Shown here piece by piece: positions 46,127 through 50,068 of a stretch of DNA of 50,068 bases; positions within the stretch are counted from its first letter, which is position 1, and the number at the start of each line of letters is the position of its first letter. The notes below the pieces were generated by a model. The model ran no database searches. It saw only the letters and a program-made list of their open reading frames with translations, and was not told the origin of the DNA. Both the position numbers and the translations under genes were made by a program. The stretch covers positions 1-50,068 of the forward strand of contig JAYKJB010000102.1 in NCBI GenBank assembly GCA_035285325.1, in the 5' to 3' direction. Source of the DNA: Candidatus Sericytochromatia bacterium. GTDB taxonomy: Bacteria; Cyanobacteriota; Sericytochromatia; S15B-MN24; JAQBPE01.

Positions 46127-47263
46127 GTGGCTGAATCCGGGGGGCAAGAACGCACCGAAAAGCCCACTCCACGAAGGCTGCAGGAGGCGCGCAAGAAGGG
46201 CAACATTGCCCGCAGCATGGACGTGAACACAGCGGTGGTGCTGCTGGCGGCCATCACGGGGATTCGCCTGCAGTTCGACGATATGGGCACGCGCCTGCTC
46301 GATCTGGCACGGGAAGCCTTCTCGGTCTTTCCGAGGGACGACATGACGGTGGGGATGTTGCACCGGGTGTTCGTCACGCTGGGCTGGGAATTCTTCCTGA
46401 TCGTGGGACCGTGCCTGCTCATGCTCATGGGAGCCGGTCTCGTGGCCAATTACCTTCAGGTGGGCGTCATCTTCACGACCGAGCCGTTGCGGCCGTCGCT
46501 CGAGAAAATCAATCCGATTGCCGGGTTCAAGCGGATCCTCTCGCTTCGCTCGGTGGTGGAGGTTCTCAAGGCGATCGTGAAGATGATCGTGGTTGCCATC
46601 ATCGCTTACAGGACGATCGAGGACCGCTACGACCAGCTGGTCGCCACGGTCCTGATGGACCGCGAGGGCGTGGCCTGGTTGTACGGGGACCTGGCCTGGA
46701 CGATCGGCTGGCGGGCCGTTCTGGCGCTGGTTTTCTTTGCCGCCCTGGACTTCTTCTACCAGCGCTGGGAGTACGAACGTGGCCTGCGCATGACCAAGCA
46801 AGAAATCAAGGACGAGGCCAAGCAGAGTGAAGGTGATCCGATCGTGCGGGGCCGGATCCGCCGTGCGCAGCGAGAGGCAGCGCGGCGTCGGATGATGGCC
46901 GATGTGCCCTCCGCGACCGTGGTCGTGACCAACCCGACCCACGTGGCGGTCGCGCTGAAGTATGACCGTGACAGTATGGTGGCGCCGGTGGTGGTGGCGA
47001 AGGGGCTCGACCTGATCGCGCAACGCATCAAGACCATCGCCGCCGAAGCGGGTGTTCCGATGATTGAAAATGTCCCACTGGCCCGTGAACTGTACCGACG
47101 ACTCGAGATTCAAGACGAGATTCCAGAAGATCTCTACGCCGCAGTGGCCGAAATTCTGGTGATGGTGCAGAAGCTCAATTCCCGTGGGCACGCCCTGCCG
47201 ACGGCAGGCAGTGGCCTGCAGATGCCGGCGGATCTGTTCGAAACGACGGCTCAGGGACGTTGA
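46127..47263 (+). CDS. flhB: Flagellar export switch protein FlhB
   Basis: A 378-residue FlhB. The N-terminal ERTEKPTPRRLQEARKKGNIARS leads into four transmembrane helices; the cytoplasmic domain contains the autocleavage site N269-P270-T271-H272 (VVVTNPTHVAVALKY). The C-terminus has IPEDLYAAVAEILVMVQKL. It switches export from hook to filament substrates in response to FliK. GTG 46127 is used; GGGAGGTGA lies a rather long 11-12 nt upstream. Confidence 0.98.
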   Translation: MAESGGQERTEKPTPRRLQEARKKGNIARSMDVNTAVVLLAAITGIRLQFDDMGTRLLDLAREAFSVFPRDDMTVGMLHRVFVTLGWEFFLIVGPCLLMLMGAGLVANYLQVGVIFTTEPLRPSLEKINPIAGFKRILSLRSVVEVLKAIVKMIVVAIIAYRTIEDRYDQLVATVLMDREGVAWLYGDLAWTIGWRAVLALVFFAALDFFYQRWEYERGLRMTKQEIKDEAKQSEGDPIVRGRIRRAQREAARRRMMADVPSATVVVTNPTHVAVALKYDRDSMVAPVVVAKGLDLIAQRIKTIAAEAGVPMIENVPLARELYRRLEIQDEIPEDLYAAVAEILVMVQKLNSRGHALPTAGSGLQMPADLFETTAQGR

Positions 47264-47312: not shown

Positions 47313-47738
47313 TCAGCCCGTGCCCTCGCTGGGCGTGAAGCGCGGAATCGAGACTTCGCCCACCTCCGCGTGAAACCGGCTGGCGAAGGCCGTCTCGAAT
47401 CGCGTGACCGCGAAATCGAGCACCTTCAATTTGCCCAGCAGTTCGGCTTCCAGGCGCCGCCACTCCCGTTCGGTCGCCTCTTCCGCCGGGACGGGTTCAA
47501 GTTCGGGCCGGGGCGGCAGGGTCAGGCGAGAGGGGATGCGGGTAGTCAGCTTTTCGGCGTCACGCCCCAGAGCCTCTGCGGAGAAGCGGACCTGGTCTTG
47601 CGAGGCTGCGCCCGGCGCGGGGGCCTCCGGCTCCTCTTCCTCCTGATTTTCGCCGTCCTTCTGGCCGCGGCCGAAATAAAAGCCTCCCTGGCCCCCGCCC
47701 GAAGAATTGAACAGGGTCCCGCTGATTTTCAGGTCCAT
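47313..47738 (-). CDS. Hypothetical protein in the flhB-flhA gap
   Basis: A 141-residue ORF on the opposite strand to the operon. The N-terminus is Gly/Ser-rich (NSSGGGQGGFYFGRGQKDG), then an acidic run (EEEEPEAPAP), a Pro-rich part, and a helical C-terminal half (REWRRLEAELLGKLKVLDFAVTRFETAF). No domain is recognised. GAGG lies about 12 nt before the ATG. It is convergent with flhB (50-bp gap) and divergent from the LIM/peptidase gene. Confidence 0.55.
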   Translation of the reverse strand: MDLKISGTLFNSSGGGQGGFYFGRGQKDGENQEEEEPEAPAPGAASQDQVRFSAEALGRDAEKLTTRIPSRLTLPPRPELEPVPAEEATEREWRRLEAELLGKLKVLDFAVTRFETAFASRFHAEVGEVSIPRFTPSEGTG

Positions 47739-47837: not shown

Positions 47838-48845
47838 ATGATTTGCGCTGATTGTCGCGAGCCCATTCAGGGACGCTACCTTCGCGTCGGGCGCCTGACC
47901 TTTCATCCCGAACATTTTCGCTGTCGCCATTGTCGCGCGGTCATCATCGGTCAGTATCACGCTCACGAGGGGACGTTTCTGGACCCGACCTGCTTTGCGG
48001 CCCATTACGCCCCGCGCTGTGAGATCTGTACCCAGCCCGTGCTCGATCGCTACGTGGAACACCGTGGCAAGCCGGTGCATGTCGCCTGTTACGGCAAGCA
48101 TCTTGCCCAGCACTGTGTGGTGTGTCGCCGAGCGATCGTCGGGACGTGGGTCAAGGACCACTGGGGTCACGTCTATCACGCGGAGCACACACGGGAATAC
48201 GCCACCTGCCAGTATTGCAGCCGGCTCTGCCACGATGCGATCGGCGGCGGAGGCGTGCGCTATCCCGATGGGCGCGCGATCTGTCGCCAGTGTCATCGCA
48301 CGGCCGTGCAGCGCGAGGGCGACGTTCAACGCGTGGTCGAGGGGATGAAGGGCCGCATGGCTGGCTGGGGCATCGATCTGCGTGACGTGGCGGTTCCCGT
48401 CGGGATGGTGGATCGCCATCGCCTGGGCCAGTTGCTCGGGCGCAGTCACGCGGGCATCAAGAGCGTCAGTGGGGTGGCCCAGATGCACTGGGAGCGTCAT
48501 GGACGTGAAACACGTCATCGCAGGGCCTCGATCTTCCTGCTTCACGGACTTCCGCTGCACTGGCTCGAGGCCACGGCCGCGCACGAGTTGATGCACGTGT
48601 GGAACTTTCACCGCTGTCCACCCCACAGCTTTGAACTGGAGGAGGGAGCCTGCAACTACATGAGCTACCGTGTTCATCTGGAGAAAAATGACGCCCTCGC
48701 GCAATACCATATCGAAGCCCTCATGCGGGACCCGCATCCCGCTTACGGTCAGGGCTTTCGACGGGTCAAGCGGCTGGTCGACAGCAAGGGCTTCGACACC
48801 CTGCTCACGGTCTTGCAGCGCAGTCGCGACTTTCCCTGGTTTTGA
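47838..48845 (+). CDS. LIM-domain protein with DA1-like zinc metallopeptidase domain
   Basis: A 335-residue protein. Residues 3-56 form a full LIM zinc-binding pattern (C3, C6, H23, H26, C29, C32, C52, H56). Further LIM-like ligands follow: C61, C64, H81, C84, then C93, C96, H114, H117, C124, C127, C149, C152. The C-terminal half resembles the DA1-like peptidase: AAHELMHVW (HExxH at 249-253) and, 15 residues on, LEEGACNYMSY giving a third-ligand Glu (E268/E269). In plants DA1 is a ubiquitin-activated peptidase; here the substrate is unknown. No signal peptide or transmembrane segment is seen, so it is probably cytosolic. ATG follows AGGGGCGG. Confidence 0.8.
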   Translation: MICADCREPIQGRYLRVGRLTFHPEHFRCRHCRAVIIGQYHAHEGTFLDPTCFAAHYAPRCEICTQPVLDRYVEHRGKPVHVACYGKHLAQHCVVCRRAIVGTWVKDHWGHVYHAEHTREYATCQYCSRLCHDAIGGGGVRYPDGRAICRQCHRTAVQREGDVQRVVEGMKGRMAGWGIDLRDVAVPVGMVDRHRLGQLLGRSHAGIKSVSGVAQMHWERHGRETRHRRASIFLLHGLPLHWLEATAAHELMHVWNFHRCPPHSFELEEGACNYMSYRVHLEKNDALAQYHIEALMRDPHPAYGQGFRRVKRLVDSKGFDTLLTVLQRSRDFPWF

Positions 48846-48905: not shown

Positions 48906-48975
48906 CCTCTCGGGCAGGCCTGGAAAAGGCCTGGAAGCCCCGTGCTGATTGAACGCTGAAGGGTACACCTCCACC

Positions 48976-50068
48976 ATGGCCGCGAACATCAACCCGGCAC
49001 AACCTGTCGGGCTTGCCCAGTTCCTGAGGTCCGGCGACTTCGTGCTCGCCGTCGCGATGGTGCTGGTGGTGGGCATGATGGTGGTGCCACTGCCATCGCC
49101 GCTGCTCGACCTGCTGCTGGTCACCAACATCACCCTGGCGCTGACCATGCTCATGGTCAGCCTGTACGTGCAGCGTCCCCTCGAATTCAGCACGTTTCCG
49201 TCCTTATTGCTGATCCTGACGCTTTTCCGCCTGGCTTTGAACGTGGCCACCACCCGTCTCGTGCTGCTGAACGCCGAGGCCGGTCGCGTGATCGAGGCCT
49301 TCGGCACCTTCGTGGTGGGGGGCAACTATGCGGTGGGCGTGGTCATCTTCATCATTCTGATCGTGATCCAGTTCATCGTGGTGACGAGCGGCGCGGGGCG
49401 CATTTCCGAAGTCGCCGCCCGCTTCACCTTGGACGCCATGCCCGGCAAGCAGATGGCCGTCGACGCCGACCTCAACGCCGGCATCATCGACGAAGCCGAA
49501 GCCAAGAAGCGCCGTTCCGACATCGCCCGCGAATCCGATTTCTTCGGAGCCATGGACGGTGCCTCCAAGTTCGTGCGGGGCGATGCCGTGGCCGGCATCG
49601 TGATCACGCTGGTGAACATCGTGGGCGGGTTCGTGGTGGGCATGCTGATGCTCGACATGGACGCCCTCACGAGTCTGGAGACCTTCACCCACCTCACCAT
49701 CGGTGACGGCCTGGTGGGACAGATCCCGTCGCTCATGATCTCGACGGCAGCAGGCATCATCGTGACACGGGCGGCCTCGAAAGCCAACCTGGGCGAAGAA
49801 ATCACGGGCCAGCTCACCCAGTCGCCTTCGGCCTTGTATGTGTCGGCGGTGGTCATGGGCGGGTTGGCGCTGGTGCCGGGGCTGCCGCACCTGCCCTTCT
49901 TCCTGCTGGCAGTGGGAACGGCAGCGGTGGCCTACGGCAAGACCCGGGCGCAGCAGCAAGAAAAGCTGGAGGCCGAGACCCCCAAGCCCCAGGCGGCCCG
50001 TGCTCCTGAGGAGGACCGCATCGAGAACTACCTGGCCATCGACCAGATGGAACTCGAGATCGGCTACG
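48976..50068 (+). CDS. flhA: Flagellar export gate protein FlhA (3' partial)
   Basis: The first 364 residues of FlhA, running off the window. The multi-helix membrane domain begins GDFVLAVAMVLVVGMMVVPLPSPLLDLLL. The FHIPEP signature is present around residues 150-200: RFTLDAMPGKQMAVDADLNAG, IIDEAEAKKRRSDIARESDFFGAMDG and KFVRGDAVAGI. The start of the cytoplasmic domain (EEDRIENYLAIDQMELEIGY) is at the edge. FlhA uses proton flow for export and docks chaperone-substrate complexes. ATG 48976 is preceded by a GTTATGTT element. Confidence 0.97.
   Translation, partial: MAANINPAQPVGLAQFLRSGDFVLAVAMVLVVGMMVVPLPSPLLDLLLVTNITLALTMLMVSLYVQRPLEFSTFPSLLLILTLFRLALNVATTRLVLLNAEAGRVIEAFGTFVVGGNYAVGVVIFIILIVIQFIVVTSGAGRISEVAARFTLDAMPGKQMAVDADLNAGIIDEAEAKKRRSDIARESDFFGAMDGASKFVRGDAVAGIVITLVNIVGGFVVGMLMLDMDALTSLETFTHLTIGDGLVGQIPSLMISTAAGIIVTRAASKANLGEEITGQLTQSPSALYVSAVVMGGLALVPGLPHLPFFLLAVGTAAVAYGKTRAQQQEKLEAETPKPQAARAPEEDRIENYLAIDQMELEIGY

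Follow-up and report, generated by a model that had tools for sequence, protein, structure and literature searches.

A gene for a probable bacterial LIM-DA1-like zinc metallopeptidase located between flhB and flhA in a Sericytochromatia genome

A gene located between flhB and flhA in the genome of a Candidatus Sericytochromatia bacterium (GCA_035285325.1, contig JAYKJB010000102.1, positions 1 to 50,068; this whole stretch of 50,068 nucleotides is what we refer to as the window) very probably encodes a bacterial zinc peptidase of the LIM-DA1 family. The reading we favour, to which we give a probability of about 80%, is that the product is a cytosolic enzyme which cuts a protein partner, encoded by a long-standing gene of the class that was rearranged to its present place. 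That the gene sits between flagellar ones seems to be a local accident and not a sign of a motility function, which corrects the idea that this location is meaningful.

Domain anatomy of the protein

An earlier note on this DNA had described LIM domains joined to a DA1-like metallopeptidase, and profile searches of the 335-aa open-reading frame bear this out. LIM (PF00412) matched residues 3-53 with 37.1 bits (E = 3.9e-9, curated cut-off 22.9), and DA1-like (PF12315) matched in two stretches with 43.4 bits (E = 3.2e-11, curated cut-off 25), the coverage of this 213-position profile being partial (63-129 plus the second stretch). NCBIfam held no model matching the protein. The open-reading frame begins directly with the LIM domain and no signal peptide was seen.

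The complete LIM ligand set that had been proposed is indeed there, with all eight ligands present in the front LIM domain (residues 3-56), which carries HxxH where HxxC is usual. Of the two further LIM-like modules in the same proposal, one is a full eight-ligand module (C93-C152), whilst the other is half a module, with ligands for one zinc only (Table 1); the nearest relative (L003, which has the same genes as contig G001:C118 of the same-family genome) carries additional half modules at the position of the latter. The full module, at residues 93-152, follows the pattern CX2CX17HX2HX6CX2CX21CX2C, giving four CxxC/H pairs ahead of the peptidase, and its halves are joined by a longer link than in a normal LIM domain.

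In 20,000 composition-preserving shuffles of the protein, the LIM pattern did not occur once and HExxHx(14-16)EE occurred 16 times. Raw coding statistics were weak across the LIM part, probably owing to its Cys/His-rich composition; its conservation in relatives establishes that this part is coding. Scans for promoters and terminators found nothing.

Table 1 Position and supporting evidence of the peptidase gene, its modules, its neighbours and its paralogue.
Feature	Position	Strand	Evidence and remarks
flhB	46127..47263	+	PF01312, 1.8e-128
Small gene, 141 aa, divergent from the peptidase gene	47313..47738	-	Coding score and GC3; no family match
LIM-DA1-like zinc metallopeptidase gene	47838..48845	+	ATG start, 335 aa; Pfam matches, 22-protein alignment
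Canonical LIM domain (ligands C3, C6, H23, H26, C29, C32, C52, H56)	47844..48005	+	PF00412, 37.1 bits; sequence and model both match LIM domains of PINCH/paxillin
Half LIM module (C61, C64, H81, C84; one zinc set)	48018..48089	+	Sequence; alignment of 22 proteins
LIM-like module (C93, C96, H114, H117, C124, C127, C149, C152)	48114..48293	+	Invariant in 22/22 aligned proteins
Best DA1-like stretch, containing HELMH (249-253) and E269, the probable third ligand of the zinc	48474..48671	+	Pfam, alignment, shuffles
flhA, runs off contig	48949..50067	+	PF00771, 3.3e-159
Second DA1-like gene of the window genome (G000:C38)	L071 9670-10506		LIM-like module and HELMH-x15-EE peptidase

Predicted structure and active site

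Two structures were predicted, one full-length and one of the peptidase only, each from a two-row alignment and with a mean pLDDT of about 59. The full-length model reached good confidence only over roughly residues 1-80 (with pLDDT above 80 for residues 1-70), and in a PDB fold search it matched the LIM pairs of PINCH and LIM-homeodomain proteins. The models thereby support the predicted LIM fold of the front part, a support that does not extend to the geometry of the active site. The peptidase-only model is of low confidence (mean pLDDT 58.8) and returned no significant PDB match in the fold search; in it, strands precede the HExxH helix, which is followed by a helix with E269, and this low-confidence order of elements would be the one expected for a gluzincin.

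Relatives were compared in an alignment of 22 proteins from 13 genomes, the window genome's own pair being counted among them. The ligands of the LIM-like module are invariant in all 22, as are H249, E250, H253, E269, G270, Y303 and R308. Of the HELMH motif and downstream EEG of the earlier description, the HExxH residues, E269 and G270 hold throughout the aligned family, and the first glutamate, E268, does not; as E268 is not invariant and E269 is, the latter is the likely third zinc ligand. The zinc site in the window is of gluzincin type, HELMH-x14-EE, one residue below most relatives: the spacing from HExxH to EE/xE is x15 in 19 of the 22 proteins, x14 in the window protein and its nearest relative, and x16 in one. 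DA1-like was matched in Pfam by 17/17 aligned members and LIM by 15/17. The front LIM domain is optional, and since some of the 22 relatives lack it, the conserved core is the LIM-like module plus the peptidase.

The shortened x14 spacing, shared by the window protein and its nearest relative, and the want of a confident active-site model would both suit a protein that has lost its activity, in which the HExxH fold serves as a scaffold carrying LIM domains. We consider such a pseudo-peptidase unlikely, however, as all 22 divergent proteins keep H249, E250, H253 and E269 unchanged, a conservation one would not usually expect of a dead enzyme.

Distribution and descent

The family is present in 14 of 18 sampled genomes of the class, often in at least two copies per genome, and is absent from all 274 genomes sampled elsewhere in the phylum Cyanobacteriota. 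The window genome itself has two DA1-like genes. The product of the second shares about 36% identity with the window protein over 250 residues but differs at the front, where it resembles a signal peptide and carries no canonical LIM domain. In the gene tree, the window gene groups with the copy of the same-family genome at 100/99 support, whilst the second copies that these two genomes carry pair with each other at 98/96, within a set of second-type genes that includes another family of the order. Divergence within the class is deep, and the paralogues are older than the split of the two f1 genera. The tree fits an old duplication followed by inheritance in the class and speaks against recent transfer. 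Given their signal-peptide-like N-termini, the second-type proteins of the window and same-family genomes may be exported. The second gene lies upstream of an imidazolonepropionase-like gene, and the same pair is found in G001 (L070).

Most LIM domains occur in eukaryotes, and in the PDB it is animal LIM proteins that match the protein best; either point might suggest that the gene was acquired recently from a plant or another eukaryote. Such an origin appears extremely improbable given the spread through 14 of the 18 class genomes, the depth of divergence, the age of the paralogues and the lack of ubiquitin-interacting motifs (UIMs). As for a recent transfer from a plant into the window genome in particular, this is unlikely because the gene, when compared among bacteria, is consistent with descent within its class.

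No relatives were found in phages, plasmids or viral contigs, leaving carriage on mobile elements unsupported, and an anti-phage reading is likewise unsupported, PADLOC having given nothing.

The flagellar neighbourhood

The peptidase gene had been placed inside the flagellar operon. It does lie between flhB and flhA, the latter being on the same strand 103 bp downstream, but a minus-strand gene missed earlier separates it from flhB. This 141-aa gene has a coding score of 35.5 vs. -22.6 for the overlapping plus-strand open-reading frame, and a gap of 99 bp divides it from the peptidase gene. Because an opposite-strand gene intervenes, the peptidase gene is not simply in one flagellar transcription unit. 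Beside the nearest relative, a 119-aa gene (L061 10170-10526) occupies the same divergent position; its product aligns to the 141-aa protein better than 500 of 500 shuffles, with a genome-wide E of only 0.5, and may at most be taken as a weak lead to a counterpart.

Near flhA the family recurs only in the same-family genome. There the peptidase gene and flhA share a strand, flhA being the downstream one, and some 6 kb separate them; this interval contains genes that resemble CAP, gnd, zwf, opcA and pgl (identified by sequence inspection, not profiles). The flhB gene of that genome is on another contig, followed by unrelated genes. Direct adjacency to flhA is confined to the window. In four relatives (G006, G004, G002 and G010) flhB and flhA are adjacent with nothing between them, a different gene is inserted between them in G005, and a chemotaxis-like cluster is found there in G003; as the last two carry other genes at this position, the flhB-flhA junction is one that takes insertions. 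In other genomes the family members are near neither flhA nor flhB, and their neighbours differ between genera, with none common across the class. In family f4 (L062, L063, L064, L066 and L069), the gene immediately upstream of the peptidase gene, in the same orientation, is RidA-like, as judged by inspection.

FlhA-family matches were found in 17 of the 18 class genomes. The window genome has additional FlhA-family genes, these complete, besides the truncated one of the window, namely L124 (G000:C54) and G000:C61:35222-37216; G000:C54 also carries fliP/fliQ/fliR-like genes, an indication of another export set, either flagellar or type III.

The close, same-strand position upstream of flhA, and its looser recurrence about 6 kb from flhA in the same-family relative, could be explained by a protease dedicated to the flagellum, one that is produced together with flhA and tunes assembly through cleavage of FlhA, FlhB or a different part of the export apparatus. 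We hold this to be very unlikely. The junction is closed without the gene in the four relatives above and family members elsewhere are away from flhA and flhB, whilst three of the 17 genomes with FlhA-family matches lack the peptidase family altogether; moreover, FlhB retains its own NPTH autocleavage motif (46931-46942), and the opposite-strand gene stands between flhB and the peptidase. There is a slight chance that a LIM-DA1 peptidase was recruited to flagellar export in this family-level lineage, cutting FlhA or a partner, with the protein encoded at 47313-47738 as its regulator or substrate. If true, this would be the first case of an enzyme of DA1 type acting on a substrate from bacteria. 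The earlier suggestion of a partner linked to motility is nevertheless not upheld by the comparison with relatives, in which the neighbours are not conserved: the flagellar setting is weak evidence, and the linkage to flhA recurs in one family only.

Proposed mode of action

Under the favoured reading of a partner-cutting LIM-DA1 peptidase, the protein very probably cuts other proteins as enzymes of the plant DA1 type do, its proteolytic activity being predicted from the sequence. The peptidase domain would hold one catalytic zinc by H249, H253 and E269, with E250 acting as the general base, whilst the LIM, half-LIM and LIM-like modules would be structural zinc modules. Of these, the array at the front would bind the partner and provide specificity, and the LIM-like module would belong to the enzyme core as an indispensable part that probably gates or supports activity. 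As in plant DA1, to judge by analogy, the enzyme would make limited cuts in the protein partner bound by its LIM domains, presumably in the cytosol. Its gene would have been moved by rearrangement to between flhB and flhA.

Comparison with known DA1 proteins

In plants, DA1 governs how large seeds and organs become, by means of a cleavage that ubiquitin triggers. The window protein shares with plant DA1/DAR proteins the order of LIM, LIM-like module and clan MA peptidase, the four CxxC/H pairs in the LIM-like module, and the HExxH-x14/15-EE motif. The zinc motif of Arabidopsis DA1 is HEMMHX15EE (PMC5322733), so that HELMH-x14-EE in the window is one residue shorter. Mutation of the HEMMH histidines abolished cleavage by plant DA1, and a C274Y substitution in the LIM-like module abolished activity (PMC5322733); in yeast, interaction was seen between a LIM fragment of DA1 and its substrate WUS (PMC11143343).

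The window protein differs from plant DA1 in its additional half-LIM module and in having no UIM match in Pfam. As it lacks ubiquitin-interacting motifs, the plant route of activation by ubiquitin is probably not shared; a search of its own genome for ubiquitin-conjugating (E2) enzymes gave no match, with the controls equally silent.

Roseiflexus belongs to a phylum other than that of the window organism. Bacterial DA1-related proteins with LIM-like CxxC/H pairs are attributed to it in PMC5322733 (citing Burroughs et al. 2011), and by that paper's description they resemble the window protein in being bacterial, in being DA1-related and in their LIM-like pairs. Bacterial LIM-DA1 proteins were already known, and what is added here is a new member, its additional half module and the spread of the family through the class; we found no description of the latter two in the literature searched, which took in few subscription papers. 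The divergent bacterial relatives, including a window member without UIMs, define a minimal enzyme consisting of the LIM-like module and the peptidase, in which E269 is probably the third ligand. They also offer simple proteins for biochemistry and structure.
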